30,120 nucleotides of DNA from the IMG/VR virus record IMGVR_UViG_3300025286_000088, positions 1 to 30,120 of that record. One strand, 5' to 3'. The translations under genes and the position numbers were made by a program. This stretch comes from a virus. Of this stretch, positions 1,542-30,120 are shown one piece after another (within the stretch, counting starts at the first letter, position 1; the number at the start of each line of letters is the position of its first letter). The notes under the pieces are model-generated. The model did no database searches. It saw nothing but the letters and a program-made list of their open reading frames with translations, and was not told the origin of the DNA.

Positions 1542-2410
1542 TACCAGTCCAGCGACCTGTCGACAAGCTTGGCGTACAAAAACTCGCCTAGCCCTTGCAC
1601 CGTGTTGCCAGGTTTTTCCAGGTACGCGCCAGAGGATGCATACCCACCGTCCTGTAGTACACGAGATATATGCTCCTTGCTCCATCCCTGGGTCGTGACC
1701 CACTCGGATAATTCCGCTTTGTTTTTCAGCGGTGGTGGCCCATCCTCCGGCTTCTGCTCCACCTCGATCACGACCGCGCCCGCGTCCTGAGCCGCCTGCA
1801 CGAGCGGGGACTCGCACCGTGCCGCCATCCGCGTGTTGTACCATCCGGCCAGCTTCTCGGCGTCGAAAATTAGACCGTCCAGCACATAGACTCCCGGCTC
1901 CACCATCGCCAGGATATCGCTGACAGCCTTGCGGTCGTTGACCCCCTCGACCTCCCGCCGGAACTTTGCGAGGGCTTCGGCCTGCCGCTCATCGGGCGTT
2001 GGTGCAGGGCGGTAGACCACCCCAGGCACTCCAGAGGCGTCCGAGGATCGCGGGAGAGGCGCGTTAGGGGTCTGGCCCGTGGAACTACTAGGGGCTGCTC
2101 CGTTCGGCGCTCCGGCGGGCCGAGAAGCGATCATATTCCACGTGACTTGGTAGTCCTTCTCGGTGCCGTCGACGGGGCCAGCCTCGATGTCGCCCCGATC
2201 GATGTAGTATTTGGCCCGCTGATAGGCCGCGAAGGTCGCCATCACGGTGGAGCCGATCTGCGGCGGTGGCCCCTGGTCTTTTTTCCAGACCAGATACCTA
2301 TATGATCGGTCGCCGTCGAACGCCGGGATGTCTGCCTCGATGGAATACTTCCAGCTTGCGTCGTCGGTGACGGTTACGATTGTAGCCTCGGTTTCAATTC
2401 GGTCTGACAT
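1541..2410 (-). CDS. Hypothetical early protein, possible OB-fold ssDNA-binding protein
   Basis: Protein of 289 residues. Residues 1 to about 95 are rich in beta strands with aromatic and basic residues (YRYLVWKK, FAAYQRAKYYIDRG), which resembles an OB-like single-stranded DNA-binding domain. A Pro/Ser/Ala-rich linker follows (about 96-140), then a helical domain, and a short C-terminal module (about 222-289) of the form KNKAELSEWV...WSKEHISRVL. The ATG at 2410 overlaps the previous stop by one base and has GGGAGATA upstream. The SSB-like reading is an inference from strand pattern and its place beside the ATPase; I do not recognise a named family. Confidence 0.65.
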   Translation of the reverse strand: MSDRIETEATIVTVTDDASWKYSIEADIPAFDGDRSYRYLVWKKDQGPPPQIGSTVMATFAAYQRAKYYIDRGDIEAGPVDGTEKDYQVTWNMIASRPAGAPNGAAPSSSTGQTPNAPLPRSSDASGVPGVVYRPAPTPDERQAEALAKFRREVEGVNDRKAVSDILAMVEPGVYVLDGLIFDAEKLAGWYNTRMAARCESPLVQAAQDAGAVVIEVEQKPEDGPPPLKNKAELSEWVTTQGWSKEHISRVLQDGGYASSGAYLEKPGNTVQGLGEFLYAKLVDRSLDW

Positions 2411-2847
2411 TATCTCCCTCCCTTGATTGTCGGCTTGGCCTTGAATTGAATTTTGGGATTCCCAGGTATCTTGGCGTCCTCGATGATCGCCCGGTGGTCA
2501 TGCGAGAGCTTCGCCAGGGTCTTGGCCTGGGTCATGTTCCACCGCTCCGGCTCCCGCTTCACGACCTCCCGATCCGGCGTGTAGCCGACGAGGTCGTCTG
2601 GGCTGGTGATCTCCCGCAGGCGGGCCAGGATGCTATAGTCGTATGTCACTGGCGTAACCAGGGTAGCCTCGCCAGCGTCGCTCTTGATTACGGTCGCGCC
2701 TCGCTCCTGCATAGCCTCGATGATCGCCCGCTCGGTGTAATAGACCGCCTGTTCCATTCCCTTGAGCCTGTCTCTGGCGGTAACGAGTTCATCGATCAAT
2801 TCCTCCAAGGACAGGTCTAGCGTGGATTGTGCCTCTTGTAGCCTCAC
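2410..2847 (-). CDS. Coiled-coil early protein, unknown function
   Basis: Protein of 145 residues. The first half is a long amphipathic helix (ELIDELVTARDRLKGMEQAV), which looks like a coiled coil, followed by a mixed domain and a basic C-terminus (KIQFKAKPTIKGGR). I chose the GTG at 2847 because AAGGGAG lies six bases upstream and the codon comes one base after the stop of the HTH gene. An ATG at 2907 would overlap that gene by 59 bases. The shape recalls siphovirus-resistance Gp157-like or host-nuclease-inhibitor-like coiled-coil proteins near phage SSB genes, but this is only a shape resemblance. Confidence 0.7.
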   Translation of the reverse strand: MRLQEAQSTLDLSLEELIDELVTARDRLKGMEQAVYYTERAIIEAMQERGATVIKSDAGEATLVTPVTYDYSILARLREITSPDDLVGYTPDREVVKREPERWNMTQAKTLAKLSHDHRAIIEDAKIPGNPKIQFKAKPTIKGGR

Positions 2848-2848
2848 G

Positions 2849-3070
2849 TTAATCTCCCTTCTCAGCGGCCTTCGGTGGCCGTCCATTTCGTAACTCTCGC
2901 CTCGCAAATGGGTACGGTATGAGCCAGACCGCGCCCCGCGGCATCTCTATCTTCCGAGCGCCCCTGAACGCGCCCTTCGCAATCAGCCTGCCCACGCGCT
3001 GCCGCGTGATCCCGTAGTGAAGAGCGGCCTCAGTTACCGTTCCCCATTTACCCATTGGCATGTGTATCAC
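2849..3070 (-). CDS. Small helix-turn-helix DNA-binding protein (excisionase/MerR-like)
   Basis: Protein of 73 residues. TVTEAALHYGITRQRVGRLI (about residues 11-30) is a clear helix-turn-helix. It is followed by a wing ending in AVWLIPYPFARRE, the pattern of small phage excisionase or MerR-type DNA-binding proteins. The start at 3070 has AGGAGG eight bases upstream. A strong hairpin (3088-3125) lies just before the ribosome site. With no integrase present, a transcriptional regulator is more likely than a true excisionase. Confidence 0.75.
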   Translation of the reverse strand: MIHMPMGKWGTVTEAALHYGITRQRVGRLIAKGAFRGARKIEMPRGAVWLIPYPFARRELRNGRPPKAAEKGD

Positions 3071-3087
3071 CTCCTCTCCGTTATTAC

Positions 3088-3125
3088 TCCCAGGGGTCGT
3101 CAGCCGGTAGGGGCTGACGGTGGGA
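3088..3125 (-). terminator. Strong hairpin between the DUF932 and HTH genes
   Basis: CGTCAGCC (3098-3105) pairs with GGCTGACG (3112-3119) across a six-base loop. The flanks TCCCA (3088-3092) and TGGGA (3121-3125) extend the stem across an internal mismatch. No clear T-run follows on the minus strand, so it may be an attenuator, a leader structure for the HTH mRNA, or an operator rather than a full terminator. Confidence 0.5.
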
Positions 3126-3162
3126 GGTTATAGTTTACCATCGTCAACCACTAGATGATACC

Positions 3163-4143
3163 CTATCCGACGAGGATCGACCAAGCCTGCGTCCGCATCA
3201 CCTCCCCACCGCCACCGAGCCAGGAGTTCTGGAGCCGCCCAGAGACTACCTTGTCATCGGTGGAGTCTATGCTGGCGACCGCTCGACCGCCCCGGCTGTA
3301 GTCCAGGTATTCGGTGACCGCGTTGAAGGCATCCCAGCGGGTCTCGCCCCGGTTGCCCTGACCCAGGTAGAACAGGTCGAGGAGCTTGCTTGCCGCCGGA
3401 GCCTTGACCCCGTATTGCCGGTCGATAGCTATGTCGGGTTCGAGATCGAGGAGCTTGTAGGTCATGTCCTTCATCTCGTCGTGGTTCCAGGCTTGCTCCG
3501 CGATCCGGTTGGCGTCGTCCATGAGCCGCTGCATGTATGCGGCATTGAGGCCGAGGAGGTCGCGGGCCTCGTTGACCCGGCCCATGATCCCCGACGTGTG
3601 CTTCGCCGCAAATGCCGCCCTGCTGCTGGTGGCCGCTCCGAGGGTGTTGGAGCAGACCACCCTCACGGGCGTTAGGCGCATCCTGAGCGCAGCCGTCCCG
3701 TCGTGGCTGTTGTCCAGGAGAATGAAGCTCTCCAGCTTCTCGCCGTTGTCCAGCTTGTAGTCGCCTGGGAGCCGGCAAAGCATCCAGACCCGGCGACCAC
3801 CGAACAGGCTCCCGACCGTGTGAAATGTCGCGTCACCGGAGCCGACGACCGCGTTGATCGCGTCGAAACAGGTCAGGTTCTGGACGGGCGTGTATCCGTC
3901 ACTCATGACCCCGAAGACCTCGTCGGTGTCCTTGCGGACGATGGCCTTCTTGCCCTTGATCTCCTTGTAATAGCCTAGCCCGCCCCGGTAGACCGGCTCT
4001 GCCACCACCTCCCAGTCCAGGTTCGCAGCCTCAACCGCCTGGGCCGCTGTCATCGCCTGACCCTCGACGTAAGTCCCCAGACCGTGCCACGGCCTGCGGC
4101 CAACGTAAGCCATCCCGTCTGTCTCTGTAATTCCTGCGGGCAT
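3163..4143 (-). CDS. DUF932 / phage-plasmid-like protein (TIGR03299 type)
   Basis: Protein of 326 residues. The N-terminal pattern AYVGRRPWHGLGTYV, the WEVVAEPVY stretch, GVMSDGYTPVQN, the VRVVCSNTL motif and the C-terminal NAVTEYLDY region match DUF932 proteins, which are common in phages and plasmids and have no settled function. The ATG at 4143 has GAAGGAGG upstream; the open frame reaches 4266 but without a ribosome site there. The length is usual for the family. Its place at the head of the second half of the early operon fits an early, replication-associated role, but that is inference. Confidence 0.85.
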   Translation of the reverse strand: MPAGITETDGMAYVGRRPWHGLGTYVEGQAMTAAQAVEAANLDWEVVAEPVYRGGLGYYKEIKGKKAIVRKDTDEVFGVMSDGYTPVQNLTCFDAINAVVGSGDATFHTVGSLFGGRRVWMLCRLPGDYKLDNGEKLESFILLDNSHDGTAALRMRLTPVRVVCSNTLGAATSSRAAFAAKHTSGIMGRVNEARDLLGLNAAYMQRLMDDANRIAEQAWNHDEMKDMTYKLLDLEPDIAIDRQYGVKAPAASKLLDLFYLGQGNRGETRWDAFNAVTEYLDYSRGGRAVASIDSTDDKVVSGRLQNSWLGGGGEVMRTQAWSILVG

Positions 4144-4248
4144 GATGCCCCTCCTTCTCGCTACTATATTTGGGCTTGGCTCCGCTATAACATCGCCAAT
4201 GCCCACCCTGTCGGGCCGATATGTCCTCGCTCCTTCCCACTCGATTCT

Positions 4249-4270
4249 GGCAGTGGCCCGAACCACTGCC
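4249..4270. other. Perfect inverted repeat in the gap before the DUF932 gene
   Basis: GGCAGTGG and CCACTGCC are separated by six bases (CCCGAA). It lies in the 182-base gap 4144-4325 between two early genes. No T-run follows on either strand, so an operator or mRNA structure is as likely as a terminator. I see no gene in the rest of this gap. Confidence 0.5.
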
Positions 4271-4325
4271 GGTGATGAGACCCGCCCCGCTGGCTGCGAG
4301 GCGACGCTTCGGGCTTAACTCCTGG

Positions 4326-4535
4326 TTAGTACCGCTCGATGTGACCAGTCCAGATGTCGCGATAATATCCCCTGTCGTGATCCTCGTCGATTGTGTCCAG
4401 GTCACTATGCCTGCGCTCCACGCAGGGACACTCGCAGGAGGTCTGGGGCCGAGGACTGCAACGATGCTCGTAGATCATCTCGTTCCTCCCGGCCCAGCAC
4501 GGTGTGCAGATCAGTATCTGGTTGCTATCTGTCAC
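4326..4535 (-). CDS. Cys-rich small early protein
   Basis: Protein of 69 residues with Cys10, Cys13, Cys26, Cys34, Cys36 and Cys38 (including CECPC), suggesting a zinc knuckle, and an acidic Asp/Glu-rich C-terminal half. The start is GTG at 4535, overlapping the upstream gene by 11 bases and lacking a clear ribosome site, so expression probably relies on translational coupling. The family is not recognised. Confidence 0.55.
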   Translation of the reverse strand: MTDSNQILICTPCWAGRNEMIYEHRCSPRPQTSCECPCVERRHSDLDTIDEDHDRGYYRDIWTGHIERY

Positions 4536-4818
4536 GGTCGAACCATACGAGGTCTGGGCTGTTCTCCCAGGCCAGATTATTGTCTACGGCGATCCGCTGC
4601 ATAGTCATCCAGACCGACGGCAGGCCATAGGATTTCACCGTGTCGGTCGTGATGACGTAACCGTCGAAGCCCTTCCATTCCATCCCATCGCCGCAGAGAC
4701 GGCACCTGATCCTCATGACGTTCAGAACGGCCCGCACATCGCCCCAGCGCCCGTTGTCATGCGCCCAGACCACCGAGTGGCAGGCCAAGCAGAATACCAT
4801 CGTTCCGAGTTCTCTCAT
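4525..4818 (-). CDS. Zinc-ribbon-like small early protein
   Basis: Protein of 97 residues. Two Cys pairs, Cys10-x2-Cys13 and Cys39-x2-Cys42, form a probable zinc ribbon. The C-terminal half is aromatic (VWMTMQRI, ENSPDLVWFDRD). The ATG at 4818 overlaps the stop of the upstream gene as ATGA. Proteins of this kind are frequent in phage early operons and may bind nucleic acid or a host protein; the function here is unknown. Confidence 0.7.
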   Translation of the reverse strand: MRELGTMVFCLACHSVVWAHDNGRWGDVRAVLNVMRIRCRLCGDGMEWKGFDGYVITTDTVKSYGLPSVWMTMQRIAVDNNLAWENSPDLVWFDRDR

Positions 4819-5087
4819 CTCTGTCTCCTCTCGCCCCCGCGGGGCCGCTCAGGGTTAATAAAGCTCGTAGGATAGGTGGCTGGGCTTGAGTTGACGTTAC
4901 AAGCGGCGATGAATTCGCGCGTGTCGAATCTCTTGATCCGCTTGCTGACAATAGCCTCGTCCATGAAGTATGTCGCTAGACCGCGCACGACCATGTCGAA
5001 CTCCCATCCCGGCGGGTCGTCGGTTTCAAGCTGGACAGCGGCCAGCACCGCTGCGATACGGGCGTGGCGTTTATTTATGCATTCCAT
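4815..5087 (-). CDS. Hypothetical early protein
   Basis: Protein of 90 residues, mostly helical (HARIAAVLAAVQLE, GLATYFMDEAIVSKRIKRFD), with a basic Arg-rich tail. The ATG at 5087 lies two bases after the stop of the upstream gene. The frame remains open upstream to 5177, but that part overlaps the neighbour and reads like out-of-frame sequence. The ribosome site is weak, so coupling is likely. No family recognised. Confidence 0.65.
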   Translation of the reverse strand: MECINKRHARIAAVLAAVQLETDDPPGWEFDMVVRGLATYFMDEAIVSKRIKRFDTREFIAACNVNSSPATYPTSFINPERPRGGERRQR

Positions 5088-5089
5088 CG

Positions 5090-5368
5090 CTACACCAGCG
5101 CCTTGAATTTGCGTACGGTGACGCGCTCCCCGCCGACCAGGAAATATCCCTTGTAGTAGACGTTCCTGGCCGAGCATCGGACTGAGGACGTGTAGGTGTA
5201 CCGGACGCCCTCGTGCCGGAATCCCACGCTCCAGTTATTTTTCTGCTCCATCGACCGTCTGCCGCTCGCGCTGCTAGGCGGTGTCCAGGTGTAGGAGCCG
5301 CCGAAGCTCTGGTGTTGCTCCAGCGCCCTCGCGACCTTGTCTCGCTGTCCCTTGCTGATTGCTCTCAT
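5090..5368 (-). CDS. Hypothetical early protein, basic and aromatic
   Basis: Protein of 92 residues. The N-terminus is a basic helix (SKGQRDKVARALEQH) and the C-terminal half is rich in beta strands (WSVGFRHEGVRYTYTSS, VYYKGYFLVGGERVTVRKF). The ATG at 5368 overlaps the stop of the preceding 33-residue gene as ATGA. The charge suggests nucleic-acid binding, but no family is recognised. Confidence 0.65.
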   Translation of the reverse strand: MRAISKGQRDKVARALEQHQSFGGSYTWTPPSSASGRRSMEQKNNWSVGFRHEGVRYTYTSSVRCSARNVYYKGYFLVGGERVTVRKFKALV

Positions 5369-5466
5369 CGCGCATCCTCCCAGCGGGCCAATATCCGCTC
5401 TGCCTGGGCCAGGGTCAAGAACCCGGTGTCCAGCAATGCCCTGATCTCCGCTATAGCCTCTGCCAT
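5365..5466 (-). CDS. Very small early peptide (33 residues)
   Basis: The product is a single amphipathic helical hairpin (IAEIRALLDTGFLTLAQAER). The ATG at 5466 has GGAGAAGGAG upstream, and the stop overlaps the next start as ATGA. The good ribosome site and tight packing are the reasons to call it. The open frame continues upstream to 5553, but that part is antisense to codons of the neighbouring gene. Function unknown. Confidence 0.6.
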   Translation of the reverse strand: MAEAIAEIRALLDTGFLTLAQAERILARWEDAR

Positions 5467-5494
5467 GTCTCGTCTCCTTCTCCCCGTAGGGTGC

Positions 5495-5719
5495 TTACCG
5501 ATTCCGTATGGCGTCCTGCAACTGCGCCACCAAGTACGGGCCGAGTGCGCCACCGCCGAACTCGCCGATGCTGTTGTCCTTCGCTTCGACTAGAACGTCT
5601 CGGAGCGCCCGCGTCATCCTCAGCCCGACCACCACGGTGTCGGCCCCGTTGTGGTATGCGTCCTGGCGACTAGCCTCTGCCGCCTTCGCGTCCTCTCGCC
5701 GTGCCTGCAACTCTGTCAT
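5495..5719 (-). CDS. First gene of the early operon, small RHH-like or helical protein
   Basis: Protein of 74 residues. A charged N-terminal helix (ARREDAKAAEASRQDAY) is followed by VVVGLRMTRALRDVLVEAKD, a strand-helix pattern like ribbon-helix-helix repressors, and a Gly-rich turn (IGEFGGGALGPYLV). The ATG at 5719 has AAGGGGG upstream. It is the first gene after the control region and a candidate autoregulator, for example of the palindrome at 5920-5935. The RHH assignment is a guess from pattern. Confidence 0.65.
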   Translation of the reverse strand: MTELQARREDAKAAEASRQDAYHNGADTVVVGLRMTRALRDVLVEAKDNSIGEFGGGALGPYLVAQLQDAIRNR

Positions 5720-5748
5720 CGTGTCCCCCTTCTTCTTAATCCACCCTT

Positions 5749-5815
5749 ATCTTACTATACCGGTTTTCCGTTGTCACCTACTTATCTATATAAATCAGGC
5801 ACGAATCTTACGCAA
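5749..5815 (-). promoter_or_regulatory. Candidate sigma70-type promoter(s) for the early operon
   Basis: On the minus strand GTGACA (5772-5777) and TAAGAT (5749-5754) are 17 bases apart. A second possible pair, TTGCGT (5810-5815) and TATATA (5787-5792), is also 17 apart. The stretch is clearly AT-richer than its surroundings and ends about 30 bases before the first early gene. Matches are partial, so the exact start is uncertain. Confidence 0.45.
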
Positions 5816-5919
5816 TTTCGCCAATTTGCTGGAAATCGACAGAATTCGCCCTATTTGGGGCAAATCGGGGCGAGGATGGGGAATTAGACTAGCGGCGTAG
5901 GTAACAGGTGCCTCACGGG

Positions 5920-5935
5920 AATCTGTTAACAGATT
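5920..5935. promoter_or_regulatory. 16-bp perfect palindrome, operator candidate
   Basis: AATCTGTTAACAGATT is a perfect dyad. Its right side lies within a 22-base stretch (5924-5945) that recurs with one mismatch at 24140-24161. The core TGTTAACA also occurs in the gap at 28694-28701. Placement in gaps suggests a site for a phage-encoded regulator. Confidence 0.5.
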
Positions 5936-5995
5936 GTCCGTAGACGCCTAGTACAGGGCCAGGGTGGGGAATGTGGTGCCAGAGGGTAATAGAAG

Positions 5996-6033
5996 GGGCC
6001 GAGGCAGCGAGAGGCTAATCCTCTGCCCCGGCC
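5996..6033 (-). terminator. GC-rich hairpin, terminator of the late/lysis region
   Basis: On the minus strand GGGCCG and GGCAG, then AGG, pair with CCT, CTGCC and CGGCCC with one small bulge. TTCTATT follows the stem. It stands 26 bases after the stop of the last gene of the late block and before the early promoter, where a terminator is expected. The T-run is weak. Confidence 0.6.
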
Positions 6034-6058
6034 CAGAGAAGGGAGACGCTCTATCCTA

Positions 6059-6232
6059 TCATGCGTCGGACTGCAACACATCCTTGCTGAGGGCGATTAT
6101 CCCGGCGATGCACCCAACGGCGATCTCCGTCTGGCCCGACCGGATAGACAGGATGGCGATCACAATGAGGCCCACCAGGGCCAAAAATATCTGGGGTCTT
6201 AATTTTCCGAGGAAGTGCGTGAGATGTTCCAT
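6059..6232 (-). CDS. Small membrane protein, holin-like
   Basis: Protein of 57 residues. A short polar N-terminus (MEHLTHFLGKLRPQ) precedes a clear transmembrane helix (IFLALVGLIVIAILSI, about 15-30) and a second, weaker hydrophobic segment (IAVGCIAGIIAL, about 37-48), with a charged end. The ATG at 6232 has AGAGGT upstream and lies 9 bases after the previous stop. Two-helix proteins of this size at the end of a late operon are often class II holins. The assignment rests on topology and position. Confidence 0.65.
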   Translation of the reverse strand: MEHLTHFLGKLRPQIFLALVGLIVIAILSIRSGQTEIAVGCIAGIIALSKDVLQSDA

Positions 6233-6241
6233 AATCTACCT

Positions 6242-7102
6242 CTATCGGATGAACACCGGCTCCTCGACCACGCCATCATACACTGTGTTGACCGACACCG
6301 AGGAGTGTAGAATCAGATCAGCCGAGTCGATATCCCCGTCGTCTCCAATCCTGACGTCCTCTAGGATCACCCGCCCGATCTCAAAATAGTCTGCATTGAA
6401 GGCGCCCGTCCATGCCCTTACGCCGTCCAGTATCATCGTGTCGATGATCACGTCGCCGCCCGTGGTAGTCTGTCGGAGGATGATGCGGTCAACGACCATG
6501 TCCTTCGCGATGTAGCTGGTGGCCCCTCTGCCCGAGCCGATCACCACGTCGTTGGTGGTACTGCTCATCGTGGGGCTGAACGTATGGCCCGCCGCTACTA
6601 CCGAGGACGTGGCGTGGAGCGAGTAGATGTCACCATTGGCCCAGTCCATCGTCGGGAACTCGGAATTTCGGATTATCAGGGTGTCGATGGTTATCACGTC
6701 GGATGTCGATGTCCCCGAGAGTTGGAACGCATCGGCAATGCCGGACTTGCCCAACGACACATTGGTGAAGCTGATCACGTCGATCCTGATGCCCGCTGGC
6801 ATGTTAATTTCCAGCGTCTGGCTGCGATCTGTGGGGAACTCGGCGTCCACCACCCTAGACCCGATCATCGAAGGGGCATCATAGGACGCCCCGACCATCG
6901 GCCAGATAATCTCCTGGTCGCCTGACGAAATGAGCAAAAACGTCGCCGCCAGGAATCCCAGCACAACCGTGGACAGTGATGCAACGATGAGCTTCCCGCC
7001 ACCGAGATATAGTCCTCCAGGCAGCGGGAGCCTGAGCCGGGATATCCCAGGGATTTTGAGGGTCAGCCCTGGCATCGAGAACCGAAACTTTTTCTCATTC
7101 AT
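6242..7102 (-). CDS. Membrane-anchored beta-repeat protein, unknown
   Basis: Protein of 286 residues. A basic N-terminus is followed by one hydrophobic helix at about 37-58 (LIVASLSTVVLGFLAATFLLI); the rest is probably exported. The exported part carries recurring strand units such as VITIDTLIIRNSEF, VVDRIILRQTT, VIIDTMILDGV, IGRVILEDVRI and SADLILHSSV, which look like a beta-solenoid. It overlaps the upstream membrane-protein gene by 8 bases. No peptidase, amidase or muramidase motif is visible. It could be an envelope-disrupting or host-surface protein; I do not recognise the family. Confidence 0.7.
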   Translation of the reverse strand: MNEKKFRFSMPGLTLKIPGISRLRLPLPGGLYLGGGKLIVASLSTVVLGFLAATFLLISSGDQEIIWPMVGASYDAPSMIGSRVVDAEFPTDRSQTLEINMPAGIRIDVISFTNVSLGKSGIADAFQLSGTSTSDVITIDTLIIRNSEFPTMDWANGDIYSLHATSSVVAAGHTFSPTMSSTTNDVVIGSGRGATSYIAKDMVVDRIILRQTTTGGDVIIDTMILDGVRAWTGAFNADYFEIGRVILEDVRIGDDGDIDSADLILHSSVSVNTVYDGVVEEPVFIR

Positions 7103-23757: not shown

Positions 23758-23991
23758 TTAGCCGAGGACTTCCCCGCCCACTATGGTGACTGCCTCGTCT
23801 GGGCAGAACAGCATCATCTCGTATCGGTTTCTGATACTCCACCACCCCTGCGGTGTATGGTAGGTGAAATGAGTCCCGCCCATGAGGTCAATCATGCCGG
23901 TCGGCAGTGCCTCCTCCTCAATCCCGCACCGAACACAGGTGAATGTTTTGGGGTTGCTCAATTTAATCGACACGTCCTTCCACTGTCCCAT
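23758..23991 (-). CDS. Small Cys protein between TerL and portal
   Basis: Protein of 77 residues with Cys19-x2-Cys22 near the N-terminus and Cys68 near the C-terminus; aromatic centre (THFTYHTPQGWWSIRNRY). It may be a small zinc-binding protein. The ATG at 23991 has GGGGAG upstream and lies 12 bases after the Com-like gene, suggesting a two-gene unit. The promoter for the head genes follows its stop. No family recognised. Confidence 0.7.
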   Translation of the reverse strand: MGQWKDVSIKLSNPKTFTCVRCGIEEEALPTGMIDLMGGTHFTYHTPQGWWSIRNRYEMMLFCPDEAVTIVGGEVLG

Positions 23992-24187: not shown

Positions 24188-25393
24188 CTACCACACCCCG
24201 ACCCCCGGCGCACTTGTCCGGCCATATACCGCAAGGGCCAGCGCCATGACGCAGTCGTCGTGCATCCCGTCTGGCGCAGAGTACCGGACGCCCGTCCTGG
24301 TGTACTCGTAGGCGAAGGCGTCCAACTCGGAGACGATCACGCCCTGCGGATACCTCACTTCGCCGGTCTGGATCGCCATCGCTAGACCCTCCATTAGCCT
24401 CTGCTTAGATGACGAGGAGAAGTTGTACCCCTCGACGTTGGGTAACTCCCGCTGGAGTCGTTCAACGATCGGGTCGCCGACCCCGGTAGAGTCCACGATC
24501 GCGGGCGTCAGGCCGATCTCCTGGGCCAGCCGTCGGACAGTCTCCTCCCAGGGCCACTGATAACGGTCGAACCGGCAGACGGCCCCGGTCTCGTCGAGGC
24601 CCACCACGACCGTCCAGTCAACGGACTTCGCCAGGTCTACCCCGTAGACCGCCGGAGGAGCGCCGGAGACGTCCCCGATGCAGGCTCGGATCGCTTCCTG
24701 CCCGAACGGGTTCCCGCCGTCGTCTGACGGCTCGGCGAAGTACAACTCGCGGAATACGCTTTCAGGTAGCTGCCGCTGGGCCTGGTCGATCTCCTCCGAC
24801 GCTATGATCCCCGCGTCGATGGCGTCCGTGGCCGTGAGCTTCGCATAGGCCCAGCCCGGCTCCCCTCCCTCGGCCCGACGCGCCAGGGCATACGCCCAGT
24901 TCCGACGGCCCTTGACGTTGCCGATGATCCGCACCGGGCCACGGGTCGCGGTCAGGGTCGAGCGGATCGCGTGCCACGCCTCCTCCCGCATCCGCGTCGC
25001 CTCGTCCAGCACGGCGGCGTATACGTCCTCGCCGTATAGGTTGTCAGGCTTCTCGGCAGACTTGAACGAGATGATCGCACCGTTGACCAGCGTGATCGTA
25101 AGCTCGGATTCGTTGGGCGTGTACAGGGTCTCCGGCAGGCCGCGCTTGAGCCGCCGGTAGGCGATCTTCGCCTGCGGATAGACCGGGCTGATCCACCAGA
25201 ACGCTTGACCCCGCAGACCGCCCATAGCCCGCTCCAGTATCCAGGCGATACAGGCGACCGTCTTGCCGCACTTCGTCGACCCCTCGATGATCCCGTAACG
25301 GTCAGGGCTGAATATCGCCGCCTGCTGCTTCGGGTAGAGGCTCGGTCTCCGATAGGTCACCGTTGGGGCCGTCGCCGTTGAGGTAGTTCCCAC
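24188..25393 (-). CDS. terL: Terminase large subunit
   Basis: Protein of 401 residues. The ATPase part has Walker A GSTKCGKT (38-45) and Walker B VYAAVLDEA (124-132). The nuclease part has three acidic clusters: GVDLAKSVDW (Asp253), AIVDSTG (Asp301) and MHDDCVMALALAV (Asp379/380). This is the usual TerL build, slightly shorter than the 450-550 common in siphoviruses but with all motifs present. The start is GTG at 25393 with GAGG upstream, and it overlaps the TerS gene by 92 bases, an unusually long overlap that couples the two subunits. Confidence 0.93.
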   Translation of the reverse strand: MGTTSTATAPTVTYRRPSLYPKQQAAIFSPDRYGIIEGSTKCGKTVACIAWILERAMGGLRGQAFWWISPVYPQAKIAYRRLKRGLPETLYTPNESELTITLVNGAIISFKSAEKPDNLYGEDVYAAVLDEATRMREEAWHAIRSTLTATRGPVRIIGNVKGRRNWAYALARRAEGGEPGWAYAKLTATDAIDAGIIASEEIDQAQRQLPESVFRELYFAEPSDDGGNPFGQEAIRACIGDVSGAPPAVYGVDLAKSVDWTVVVGLDETGAVCRFDRYQWPWEETVRRLAQEIGLTPAIVDSTGVGDPIVERLQRELPNVEGYNFSSSSKQRLMEGLAMAIQTGEVRYPQGVIVSELDAFAYEYTRTGVRYSAPDGMHDDCVMALALAVYGRTSAPGVGVW

Positions 25394-25823
25394 TTGCCGC
25401 CTCGATGCTGAAGGTTACTTCGCCCTGGGTCAGGTGGATCGCCCGCTGGTCGATTGTGATGAGCGGCTCCTTCGGTATCACGCCGTTGATCTCGCTGATC
25501 CGGTGCATGATCGACATCACCATCTTCGTCCCGGCCTCGTCGCCGGCCAGAGCCCGAGGCCACCACCGGGAGAGGAGGGTCGTGTACCGCTCCATTTGCA
25601 GGCCGCGTATCTGGTCGGCCATGCCGCTGTACTTCTCGGCAAGGTCGTTGAGGACGCGCTTGATCGACCGGTGAACCTGGGACTTGTCGACGCCCAGGGT
25701 CTCGCCGATCTGCTTCTCGGTCGCGCCGCCCTTGTATAGCTCCAGCATCTGATACCGGCGAAGCTCCCATTCGGCCCGCTTCTGCGGCGTCGGGTAGAGT
25801 CCCGGCTGCTTACGTTTGGGCAT
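25302..25823 (-). CDS. terS: Terminase small subunit, HTH DNA-binding
   Basis: Protein of 173 residues. A basic N-terminus (PKRKQPGLYPTPQKRAEWE) precedes a helix-turn-helix (KQIGETLGVDKSQVHRSIKRVL, about 36-57), long helices for oligomerisation (SGMADQIRGLQMERYTTLLSRW) and an acidic C-terminal tail. This fits the TerS role of recognising phage DNA and recruiting TerL. The ATG at 25823 has GAGGG upstream and overlaps the previous gene by 14 bases; the end overlaps TerL by 92. TerS is assigned by adjacency and HTH, not by family signature. Confidence 0.8.
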   Translation of the reverse strand: MPKRKQPGLYPTPQKRAEWELRRYQMLELYKGGATEKQIGETLGVDKSQVHRSIKRVLNDLAEKYSGMADQIRGLQMERYTTLLSRWWPRALAGDEAGTKMVMSIMHRISEINGVIPKEPLITIDQRAIHLTQGEVTFSIEAASGNYLNGDGPNGDLSETEPLPEAAGGDIQP

Positions 25824-26097
25824 TGATAATCGCCCTCAACTCCCCGGCCACCGTCGCCTGCTCGGCTGTCCCGTCTACGATCACAATATATTTTCCCCAC
25901 GCTGACACAAGGCGATTGACCTTCGTAATGCGGCCTCGGAACCAGGAGTCTGCGAAACGACTCCCGCGCCGCCATGCTCGATACTGCGCCACTAACTCCG
26001 GCACCGCGAGATAAACCATCGTAAGCTTAAAGCCTTTGGGGATAAGCTCCGATGCCGGGACGCGCCTCAGCTCCTTGATGCGGTCTCTGATGTGCAT
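25810..26097 (-). CDS. Small basic protein before TerS, possible chimera
   Basis: Protein of 95 residues. The first ~20 residues (IRDRIKELRRVPASELIP) look like the N-terminus of phage ParB-like nuclease domain proteins, but the continuation (AVPELVAQYRAWRRGSRFAD, NRLVSAWGKYIVIVDG) does not show the expected GHxR-type motif. It may be a fused or decayed relative, or the likeness may be chance. The ATG at 26097 has GAGGAGG upstream and the gene overlaps TerS. Function unknown. Confidence 0.65.
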   Translation of the reverse strand: MHIRDRIKELRRVPASELIPKGFKLTMVYLAVPELVAQYRAWRRGSRFADSWFRGRITKVNRLVSAWGKYIVIVDGTAEQATVAGELRAIINAQT

Positions 26098-26118: not shown

Positions 26119-26346
26119 TCAGAACGATAATGGATAAAGCTCCTCAAGATGCTGCCATAGCTGCGCCATTGGCCGGAGGTTCTGCGTGAGGGTAATGTGA
26201 TTCACGTAGTTGTTCCGTCCAGGTCGAGTCGGAGATAAATGTATCACGTCATCGAACTCCCACCCGATCAGCCTTGACCGGCCCAGGCTTCTGAAGTGCG
26301 CCAGGACGCGGAGGTCACATCGCCGTTCGTTTGTGCCGACCAACAT
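26119..26346 (-). pseudogene. PD-(D/E)XK-like nuclease, C-terminal fragment
   Basis: A 75-residue frame whose sequence (CDLRVLAHFRSLGRSRLIGWEFDDVI, then LTQNLRPMAQLWQHL) looks like the C-terminal half of the phage nuclease family whose N-terminal half lies at 27684-27926. In intact relatives this part follows the catalytic lysine strand by about 15-30 residues. An in-frame TGA directly precedes its ATG, and no good ribosome site is seen. It is separated from the N-terminal half by the methyltransferase gene. It is probably a remnant; translation as a separate subunit is possible but not supported. Confidence 0.65.
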
Positions 26347-26380
26347 TCAGCGCCACAAAAAGAATCTATTACTTGGATCA

Positions 26381-27703
26381 TTAGGGCATGTAGTCTCTAC
26401 GGCGAATATTTCTTCTGCGTTTCTTTGCAGCGATACTTCCACTGTAGGAGCCGAATGGTGGCTTACCCGGTATCTGCTGCTTACTTGTGAGCGGCGGGAT
26501 GAATCCATCTACTAGTCCACGTACATGCAGTGCTAGTGCAAGTGAGAACAGCGGAGGTACGGAATTCCCGATTTGTTTGAATTTATCATCGAATGGACCT
26601 TCGAATTTGAAATCTGGAGGAAATCCCTGGAGCAAGGATGCTTCTCTTACTGAGAGCCCCCTGTGTTGTTCTGGATGAACATAACGGCCGCAGGATGGCG
26701 TTCTGCATCTAGCAGTTAATGTTATCGATGGTCGGTCCCAATGCAATCGTCCATATACATCAAAGAAGCCATGTACCCTATCTAAGCACTCGGGACCAAC
26801 GCCTTTTGGTCTAGAACCGCCATCTAATGGGACTTGCTTGATGAGTTCTACGGTTGCCTTGCGATGTCTCGAGGTCACATGAAGCGGATCCGACGCTGAC
26901 TGTTCACCCGCCTGGAGCTGAGGCAAGTCTCCGATTGCATCTCTCACAGTGTTGAATGAACCCTCCTTCAACATACCGATGGGCAGGGAGGGGATAAAGT
27001 TTCTTGAAGCTATACAAATCAGCCGATGCCTGGATTGTGGGACCCCAAATGATGCCATATTGAAGATTTCGTAGCTGATATGATACCCATGGTCGGCCAA
27101 AACACTCCAAAACTCCTGGAAATGTCTCCAGTGTCTTTTTCCTAGGAGATCCGGAACATTTTCCATTATGATCAGCCTTGCGTTTAGTTCTACTGCTGTC
27201 TCAGCGAAACGTACTACCAGCGAACTCCTCTCATCTTGTCTCTTATCCTTTTTCTTATGGGAAGAAAAAGCCACACACGGAGGCCCGCCAATGACGATCG
27301 GAGCATCGACATCCGAGTCCTTGCGGATCATCTCAGCAACTTCAATAGGGGGAATAGATAGCAAATCCAACTGCTTAGGCTTTAAGCCGAAGTTCGCACG
27401 ATAAGTTGCGTTAGCATGAATATCTGTATCTATGGCCTCTATCAATTTGAACGTTCGAAGGGACTGCTCAATAAAATGAAATCCATACGAAAGTCCACCG
27501 CAACCAGAGAATAAATCAAGCACAGGGATTTGGCCGCAGGTACTGTCATTCGGTTCGTCAACACCATCAGTCCTAGTTAATATCCGCCGAAACTCTCTAC
27601 CGAATAGAGAACTGTCTTCTCGGAAACTCACATTTCTCCCTGTCACAATCTCAGTACTTAATTGCACTTGTGAATAATCCCCATCAATAGACGAGGAAGT
27701 CAT
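26381..27703 (-). CDS. DNA cytosine-5 methyltransferase (Dcm-type), solitary
   Basis: Protein of 440 residues with all main C5-methyltransferase motifs in order: I DLFSGCGGLS (63-72, AdoMet binding), IV GGPPC with catalytic Cys143, VI ENV (181-183), VIII QSRHR (223-227), IX RPSITLTAR (324-332) and X GNSVP (379-383). The region between VIII and IX is the target-recognition domain, so the sequence specificity cannot be read. No restriction enzyme gene is adjacent, so it probably protects phage DNA from host restriction. GC is about 45-48% on sampled lines against about 70% in TerL, pointing to recent gain. Its start overlaps the nuclease fragment by 20 bases, with AGGAG nine bases upstream. Confidence 0.92.
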   Translation of the reverse strand: MTSSSIDGDYSQVQLSTEIVTGRNVSFREDSSLFGREFRRILTRTDGVDEPNDSTCGQIPVLDLFSGCGGLSYGFHFIEQSLRTFKLIEAIDTDIHANATYRANFGLKPKQLDLLSIPPIEVAEMIRKDSDVDAPIVIGGPPCVAFSSHKKKDKRQDERSSLVVRFAETAVELNARLIIMENVPDLLGKRHWRHFQEFWSVLADHGYHISYEIFNMASFGVPQSRHRLICIASRNFIPSLPIGMLKEGSFNTVRDAIGDLPQLQAGEQSASDPLHVTSRHRKATVELIKQVPLDGGSRPKGVGPECLDRVHGFFDVYGRLHWDRPSITLTARCRTPSCGRYVHPEQHRGLSVREASLLQGFPPDFKFEGPFDDKFKQIGNSVPPLFSLALALHVRGLVDGFIPPLTSKQQIPGKPPFGSYSGSIAAKKRRRNIRRRDYMP

Positions 27704-27926
27704 GCCCGCCGTCTCCTGCCCGCCTGACCGTCATGTCTAACGCGAGGCCGGTCGAACGGTGGAAAGCGTGTTCGCCGGAGATGCCCAGGTACTCCCGATC
27801 CTGACGAATCGGATTGCTGGTGTTTTGGTTCCGGTGAATCTCCACCCGTCTGCGGGCGACCCCTTCCAGGTCGGAAATCGTCGGGCATGAGGGATCACAA
27901 ACATGTTCCAGATCGATGGACACCAT
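27684..27926 (-). pseudogene. PD-(D/E)XK-like nuclease, N-terminal fragment
   Basis: An 80-residue frame. EYLGISGEHAFHRSTGLALD with Glu52, then RRAGDGGHDFLV with Asp76, match the start of a phage PD-(D/E)XK nuclease family in which 'GDGGxDF' is soon followed by a D-[VI]-K strand. Here it stops four residues after the Asp. The N-terminal ~40 residues, with Cys10 and Cys14, are of unknown type. The ATG at 27926 has AGGAGG upstream, so the fragment is probably still translated, if only to lead ribosomes to the methyltransferase start inside it. Confidence 0.7.
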
Positions 27927-28235: not shown

Positions 28236-28619
28236 CTATGTGCTGACGGGCGTCACGGTAACCGCCACCTTGCTCTCGGCCCTGGTCTTGACCCGCGTGG
28301 CAGTCATAGTGTACTCGATGACATGGTCGGGATCGTCGTCCACTGGCATGGCCCCTGCGTCCACGAGGCCATCGATGATCGGGCCGCAGAGGGTCGCGAG
28401 GCCGTCCCAATCGTAGGGCTTGCCGCAATAATATTGCCGGACGGAGACCCGACACCGCTCCGGCGTTGCCCAGTTGCCCTCCTTCTCGATCAGTCCCAGA
28501 ATGTAGGCATCCTCGCGGGCCTGCTTGACCAGGGGCCGCGTCTCCCTCCAGTGCGCTCTCCTGAGACCATTCTTCGATAATCGCTTATCAGGCTGGAACT
28601 CCACCGTTAGCGTATCCAC
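28236..28619 (-). CDS. rusA: RusA-type Holliday junction resolvase
   Basis: Protein of 127 residues. RusA features are present: an N-terminal strand then SKNGLRRAHWRETRPL, and the acidic active-site cluster KPYDWDGLATLCGPIIDGLVDAGAMPVDDDPDHV (Asp70, Asp72, Asp83, Asp94-96). RusA dimers cut Holliday junctions and in phages also help with packaging and replication ends. The length matches the ~120-residue norm. The start is GTG at 28619; a long hairpin lies just upstream in the leader. Confidence 0.88.
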   Translation of the reverse strand: MDTLTVEFQPDKRLSKNGLRRAHWRETRPLVKQAREDAYILGLIEKEGNWATPERCRVSVRQYYCGKPYDWDGLATLCGPIIDGLVDAGAMPVDDDPDHVIEYTMTATRVKTRAESKVAVTVTPVST

Positions 28620-29976: not shown

Positions 29977-30120
29977 CTAGGTGGTACAGCCGTTAACCCC
30001 TAGCGGCTCGGTAGTCTCCCACCGCCCGTTCTGGCTCACGAACCTGTCGTCGCCCGATAGCGTGGCCGATAGGCTGCGGCTAGGGGCGTCAAGTAGCTCT
30101 GCAAGGTCTGCCGTACTCAT
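29977..30120 (-). CDS. AAA ATPase, C-terminal part across the circle junction (partial)
   Basis: This carries the last 47 residues of the AAA ATPase listed at 10-1293; the first 42 are coded by the terminal repeat, and the final five (NGCTT) replace the E of the left-edge version. The stop is TAG at 29977-29979. This is probably the true end of the gene, since it continues into unique sequence. Confidence 0.8.
   Translation of the reverse strand: MSTADLAELLDAPSRSLSATLSGDDRFVSQNGRWETTEPLGVNGCTT
29995..30120. repeat. Terminal direct repeat, right copy
   Basis: Identical to 16-141. See the left copy for the reading as circular closure. Confidence 0.9.

Follow-up and report, generated by a model that had tools for sequence, protein, structure and literature searches.

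Gene content of the locus

The window analysed here is one whole virus record of 30,120 bases. Its two ends (positions 1-141 and 29995-30120) have 126 bp in common, followed at one end by 15 divergent bases, and a sister contig, L082 (IMGVR_UViG_3300008216_001362), crosses the window ends and joins them (L082 2267-2392 region; blastn). The window is therefore probably one entire genome of ~30 kb (about 29.98 kb) in circularly permuted form, and the phage was probably an environmental, tailed one. Relatives were gathered by searching IMG/VR with the large terminase, which gave 80 loci at 62-100% identity, and by searches with each of the two nuclease halves described below; terminase matches in named phages stayed below 35% identity.

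On the minus strand, the genes follow each other in the order RusA-like, small zinc-ribbon-like, ORF 27684-27926, ORF 26381-27703, ORF 26119-26346, ORF 25810-26097, small terminase and large terminase. An earlier sequence-only reading had pointed to the frames 27684-27926 and 26119-26346 and to a methyltransferase gene between them, and they were found where it had located them, all on the minus strand. The borders of the locus and the two nuclease remnants are:

28236 to 28619, minus strand: RusA-like gene (phrog_34, E=8.6e-5; 82-99% in the nearest relatives), upstream border of a variable slot
27684 to 27926, minus strand: N-terminal nuclease remnant, 80 aa, ending in GDGGHDFLVY as previously read, with a stop codon produced by the junction
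26119 to 26346, minus strand: C-terminal nuclease remnant, 75 aa, beginning with MLVGTNERRCDLRVLA
25302 to 25823, minus strand: small terminase-like gene (HTH_23), which bounds the slot downstream
24188 to 25393, minus strand: large terminase (Pfam Terminase_6N/6C)

A nuclease-like gene split in two

The frames 27684-27926 and 26119-26346 had been proposed to be the two halves of one gene, and comparison with the relatives bore this out. Both halves were found within one unbroken ORF of 169-175 aa in L005, L007, L009, L010 and L085, which form one close group, and in the separate L086. The N-terminal remnant is 80-100% identical to the first half of this ORF, and in the same intact relatives the two halves are separated by 42 nt and share one frame. 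They are therefore one split gene and not a chance pairing, and two separately conserved short genes, which the earlier reading had named as a refuting outcome, were rejected as an alternative because the relatives have a single ORF. No recognisable ribosome site was found before the ATG of the C-terminal frame.

Across the split, the intact relatives read ...GDGGHDFxVxGxxIDVKCVSxxxRMLVGT..., with GxxIDVKCVSxxxR as the intervening residues. The window is short of exactly 14 residues, IDVK included, which correspond to GIAIDVKCVSELGR in the sister contig L082 and to GLDIDVKCVSDPGR in L086. A loss of 15-30 residues containing the D/E-x-K strand had been predicted; the strand is indeed gone, and the gap is just under the predicted size. 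The accompanying expectation that the nuclease should be dead is supported by this loss, and judging from its residues the protein is almost certainly inactive in the window.

The proposed membership of the PD-(D/E)XK family gained support from motif spacing and from two distant homologues, but none from profile libraries or structure prediction. The intact proteins contain GEHAF, GDGGHDF and, nine residues later, IDVK, which amounts to D...(D/E)xK with a short spacing and a conserved E before it. One distant homologue was found at L109:1896-2414 (E=9e-12, last viral scan), and g112 of Cylindrospermopsis phage Cr-LKS4 (hhalign E=2.6e-5) was the sole, and remote, homologue among annotated phages. 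Both retain GExxF, GDGGxDF and I(D/Q)VK at the same spacing, followed by a GW strand; IDVK is intact in L109, while Q replaces D in g112. PD-(D/E)XK active sites usually show a pattern of this form, GExxF / GDGGxDF / I(D/Q)VK.

Neither of the two short ORFs of the window gave a family match. The intact L086 and L005 proteins matched no curated family profile in Pfam, PHROGs, NCBIfam, PADLOC or PDB sequences, and family searches with the L109 homologue itself were likewise empty. Two AlphaFold runs, for which few homologues were available, reached pLDDT values of 36 and 38. A profile miss does not exclude PD-(D/E)XK, which is a very diverse superfamily, and on the strength of its motifs the split gene is likely to belong there. 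The contig of the L109 homologue comes from an unrelated virus and is 30.8 kb long; a RuvC-like gene and an m5C-type methyltransferase lie close to the homologue (L109:1896-4087).

The insert is a fragment of a two-methyltransferase operon

The DNA between the two halves comprises the following features:

26349 to 27688, minus strand: foreign insert, 1340 bp in the window and 1403 bp in L082
26381 to 27703, minus strand: M1, a complete C5-cytosine DNA methyltransferase of 440 aa, slightly overlapping ORF 27684-27926
26349 to 26381, minus strand: start of a second C5-cytosine methyltransferase (M2), 11 codons (MIQVIDSFCGA), cut inside motif I

The GC content of the insert is 46.6% (in L082) versus 59.6% for the rest. 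M1 matched Pfam PF00145 (E=2.9e-51; residues 61-386, profile positions 3-314 of 324) and TIGR00675 (148 bits against a cut-off of 100.65), and in an alignment with nine relatives motifs I, IV, VI, VIII and X were present as LDLFSGCGG, PPCV, MENV, QSRHR and FKQIGNS. Its identity to proteins from cellular genomes and from two IMG/VR contigs was 48-55%, and no relative above 55% was found in a cellular genome or among viral contigs.

At all nine related loci, M1 is followed directly downstream by a second m5C methyltransferase, and the ends of the two genes usually overlap. The same arrangement begins in the window, where the ATG of the second gene overlaps the M1 stop codon as TAATG. The 11 codons agree in position and sequence with the M2 starts at nine of nine related loci, and at the cut the nuclease sequence resumes. 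Because the M2 start is cut within motif I directly behind M1, the insert is an operon fragment, and its sequence marks it as a torn piece of an LlaJI/BsuMI-like two-methyltransferase restriction-modification (RM) operon that carries the whole of M1 and 11 codons of M2. The sequence-only reading had seen a complete Dcm-type gene of lower GC between the halves, which was right as to completeness and GC content; calling it simply a Dcm-type gene missed that it is part of a broken two-methyltransferase operon.

Downstream of the methyltransferases, the related loci carry McrB-like AAA genes (L091 and L096) or an HNH-type gene (L097), and in L092 McrC- and McrB-like genes lie on the opposite strand. 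Vsr-like genes were seen upstream or nearby in several of the nine loci. These McrB, McrC, Vsr and HNH assignments are tentative ones, made by reading the sequences. When the window was held against an LlaJI/BsuMI-like operon, no full second methyltransferase was found next to M1, only the 11 codons, and no McrB/McrC-like restriction subunits adjoin M1 there, its neighbours being phage scars and the terminase.

Conserved catalytic genes commonly host self-splicing or homing introns, and an ORF within the nuclease gene could be of that kind. Such an origin is extremely improbable here: no intron family was matched in the window, L082 or L002, and the insert ends within the second methyltransferase gene. 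Splicing would moreover not rebuild the nuclease from the window form, in which some of its codons are missing.

Insertion preceded loss of the catalytic strand

The junctions of the insert involve three further features:

27687 to 27688, minus strand: deletion junction, at which nuclease sequence ...CTCGTCTA is joined to insert sequence TTGATGGGG...
26308 to 26348, minus strand: 41-bp nuclease sequence, of which one copy is left in the window
23758 to 23991, minus strand: small zinc-ribbon-like gene, of which bases 23764-23861 (98) recur at the left end of the sister contig L002, 10 nt before the insert

The insertion had been thought to lie at the catalytic strand itself. This was contradicted by L082, in which the same insert sits 27 residues further along the nuclease and IDVK is present. 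The nuclease of L082 reads ...GDGGHDFLVYGIAIDVKCVSELGRMLVGTNERRCDLR, the insert then starts from TTGGACAGTG, and the gene resumes after it at GAATGTTGG. A 41-bp sequence, GAATGTTGG...CCTCCGC, borders the insert at either end in L082 and is present as a single copy in the intact relatives.

When L082 was aligned with the window by blastn, its segments 2267-4699 and 4845-6954 came to lie next to each other on the window. The ~145 bp of L082 that are absent from the window consist of the 42 nt encoding the 14 missing residues, one 41-bp copy and the first 63 nt of the insert. IDVK is found in all intact relatives and hence ancestral, so L082 represents the older state and the window the deletion form, with insertion first and deletion second. 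On this comparison, the catalytic strand was lost not with the insertion, but by a later, second event, the deletion of about 145 bp.

The other sister contig, L002 (IMGVR_UViG_3300025267_000963), matches the window at 100% identity for 7,050 bp, counted from the insert onward. Its left flank (L002:1-108) is made up of a 98-bp exact copy of its own zinc-ribbon gene and 10 bp (TGGATTCCAA) before the insert, and this left end is either a duplication junction or a chimera. Three near-identical contigs (the window, L082 and L002) hence share one identical right junction and have three different left junctions. Assemblers often use k-mer sizes one above the lengths found here, 98 and 126, which fits contig ends at graph branches. 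Exact-match scans with both insert ends matched only the two sister contigs.

A contaminating bacterial methyltransferase that was misjoined to the phage during assembly would explain the foreign GC content, the bacterial relatives and the left junctions that differ between contigs. Such a chimera is nevertheless very unlikely, given that three contigs, which come from at least two metagenome datasets, agree in their right junction and that L082 has nuclease sequence on both flanks of the insert.

Two accounts of how the fragment arrived were weighed. In the first, it was taken up where two tandem copies met, each copy extending from GAATG in the nuclease across terS and terL as far as the zinc-ribbon gene, and the left end of L002 would show this junction. 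L082 and the window would then be independent deletion derivatives that lost the additional copy at separate points, and the 41-bp repeat would be left over from that duplication instead of being a target-site duplication. This origin, which is a finer version of the capture scenario preferred below as it concerns how capture happened, has a chance of somewhat under one half. It accommodates the common right junction and the three left junctions among near-identical contigs, as well as the 10 bases that L002 has more than L082 to the left of the insert; the zinc-ribbon copy of L002 also reaches the contig start, as expected at an assembly-graph branch. Against it, the junction rests on one short contig end that a chimeric read could mimic, and the full duplicated structure was seen in no contig.

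In the second account, the fragment was inserted directly with a 41-bp target-site duplication, so that L082 would be the primary form, the window its deletion derivative, and the L002 end a chimera or a later rearrangement. An exact 41-bp direct repeat right beside the 1403-bp insert in L082, with a single copy in intact relatives, is what such an event should leave behind, and roughly one chance in three is given to it. Known transposases, however, leave duplications far shorter than 41 bp; the insert has neither inverted repeats nor a recombinase gene, no further copies were found in IMG/VR, and the break in L002 only 10 nt from the same left edge is left unexplained. The duplication account is thus slightly favoured over direct insertion, and the data do not decide between the two. 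A transposable element with terminal inverted repeats was rejected as a candidate, as such repeats and a recombinase are missing and the only three copies share one right junction.

A variable slot with the scar of a lost modification module

Between the C-terminal nuclease remnant and the small terminase lies one more frame:

25810 to 26097, minus strand: deletion-scar ORF of 95 aa, in which a 20-aa ParB-type leader is fused with 70 C-terminal aa from a P-loop base-hypermodification kinase

By blastp, this ORF showed 95% identity over 20 aa to a ParB-like protein of L017, and 44% over 70 aa (E=2e-18) to a kinase of L055 that itself matches PF18751 (E=7.8e-18). It consists of two fused module ends, and the lineage has therefore lost a hypermodification module. 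The kinase end is also present in L003, a contig that shares 99.985% identity with 6.5 kb of the window. The label 'ParB-like' is a tentative one, after similar genes of this kind, and Pfam gave no support for it.

In the relatives, the slot between RusA and terS holds mostly modification genes: the ParB-like leader with N6/N4 methylases, other m5C methylases that are about 27% identical to M1, a TAGT glycosyltransferase with radical SAM, or a Tet_JBP dioxygenase with ADDT, a phosphatase and a P-loop kinase. Among the 33 loci with both slot borders, 7 had no match to any probe and 7 more had the leader only. The sequence-only reading, in which a nuclease was replaced by a modifying enzyme, is fair as a description of gene content; it left out a further loss from the lineage, that of a separate, resident modification module.

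Several slots of uncultured relatives are worth recording in their own right. L055:3049-6581 and L072:5-4064 carry the leader, Tet_JBP, the ADDT amino acid:DNA transferase, the phosphatase and the P-loop kinase immediately upstream of the small terminase. In L086:1321-3972, L034:3130-5754 and L014:4915-6571, the leader gene is followed by a TET-associated glycosyltransferase (TAGT), and the slots of L086 and L034 also contain a radical SAM/SPASM gene, a possible further base-modification pathway.

One could imagine that the nuclease cuts unmodified DNA, of the host or of a rival phage, and is tolerated only together with the modification enzymes of the slot; loss of the module would then have made the nuclease self-harmful, its disruption would have been selected, and the methylase would have taken over. 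Modification genes accompany the intact nuclease in the slot of both independent lineages that have it, and the nuclease was absent from every slot in which no modification gene was detected. Support for this reading is thin, the sample being too small, and it is improbable as it stands. If it were true that the nuclease depends on DNA modification, this would explain why the two kinds of genes travel together.

The predicted role of M1

The first five codons of M1 (ATG ACT TCC TCG TCT) are nuclease gene sequence in another frame, 9 nt after AGGAG, and M1 may start either at this nuclease-derived ATG or at a GTG inside the insert. Its motif IV reads PCV while all nine relatives have PCQ, so the activity of M1 could be altered. 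By analogy with lactococcal phage phi50, M1 would most likely protect the phage DNA from an LlaJI/BsuMI-like system. As the donor type of system has two methyltransferases, methylation by M1 on its own may be limited to one strand of the site.

M1 could also be a recently captured passenger, inactive or unselected, that is being lost, as were the hypermodification module and the nuclease beside it. With its two scars the slot shows decay in this lineage, M1 is confined to three near-identical contigs, and the deviating motif IV points the same way. M1 is however open without frameshift or stop codon and is preserved from codon 6 onward in all three rearranged forms, and the passenger reading is on the whole rather unlikely.

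Taken as a whole, the explanation preferred here, with reasonable though incomplete confidence, is capture, deletion, a dead nuclease, and protection by M1 taking over from the lost module. A fragment of the operon would have been caught by illegitimate recombination in a small nuclease-like gene beside the packaging genes. The later deletion of ~145 bp took away both the IDVK strand and the left edge of the insert, leaving M1 behind the ATG and AGGAG of the old nuclease gene. M1 would be transcribed with the surrounding co-directional genes and methylate cytosines of the phage DNA, presumably conferring protection against a restriction system of the donor's type and succeeding the lost base-hypermodification module. 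The phage has thus probably swapped older DNA-protection genes for a bacterium-derived methylase.

Relation to known systems

In LlaJI, the genes are arranged as M1-M2-R1-R2, the restriction subunits resemble McrBC and the site is the asymmetric GACGC/GCGTC (PMC1459862). RM systems of the LlaJI, BsuMI and LlaI type combine two m5C methyltransferases with McrBC-like restriction subunits, and M1 shows its 48-55% identity to the first methyltransferase of such tandems, with the same order of M1 then M2 and the same overlap of stop and start. Unlike these systems, the phage has M1 and 11 codons of M2 only, and no restriction genes.

The lactococcal phage phi50 gained a LlaI methylase domain identical to that of plasmid pTR2030 (Hill et al., 1991, as recounted in PMC4190342). 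As far as that account goes, phi50 resembles the present case in that a phage took part of an RM operon and retained the methylating part. It differs in that here a whole first methyltransferase was taken up, within a nuclease gene and by an uncultured environmental phage, and in that the protective role is in this case predicted. Lactococcal phages of the 936 type carry orphan methyltransferases beside their terminase genes, which are thought to protect phage DNA (PMC4190342), and so also have an orphan methyltransferase in the packaging module; those genes, however, sit between intact phage genes and are not described as operon fragments in a broken gene. Compared with the base-hypermodification modules of phages (Tet_JBP, P-loop kinase and amino acid:DNA transferase), of which L055 and L072 have one in the same slot, the window retains two module ends as a 95-aa fusion while the module itself is gone.

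The finding is real and well supported: phage capture of an RM methylase is a known kind of event, found here in an unusual setting in which the steps of capture are partly visible. One small region records steps in changing how a phage hides its DNA, namely loss of a module, capture of a torn RM operon and death of a nuclease, and intermediate forms can be seen among near-identical contigs. It offers a natural, uncultured counterpart of the classic dairy-phage case of phi50.

Elsewhere in the window, a Pistol self-cleaving ribozyme was found at positions 4276-4341 on the minus strand (38.5 bits against an Rfam gathering score of 34.5). It is the sole Rfam match in the window and lies directly upstream of a DUF932 gene at 3163-4266.
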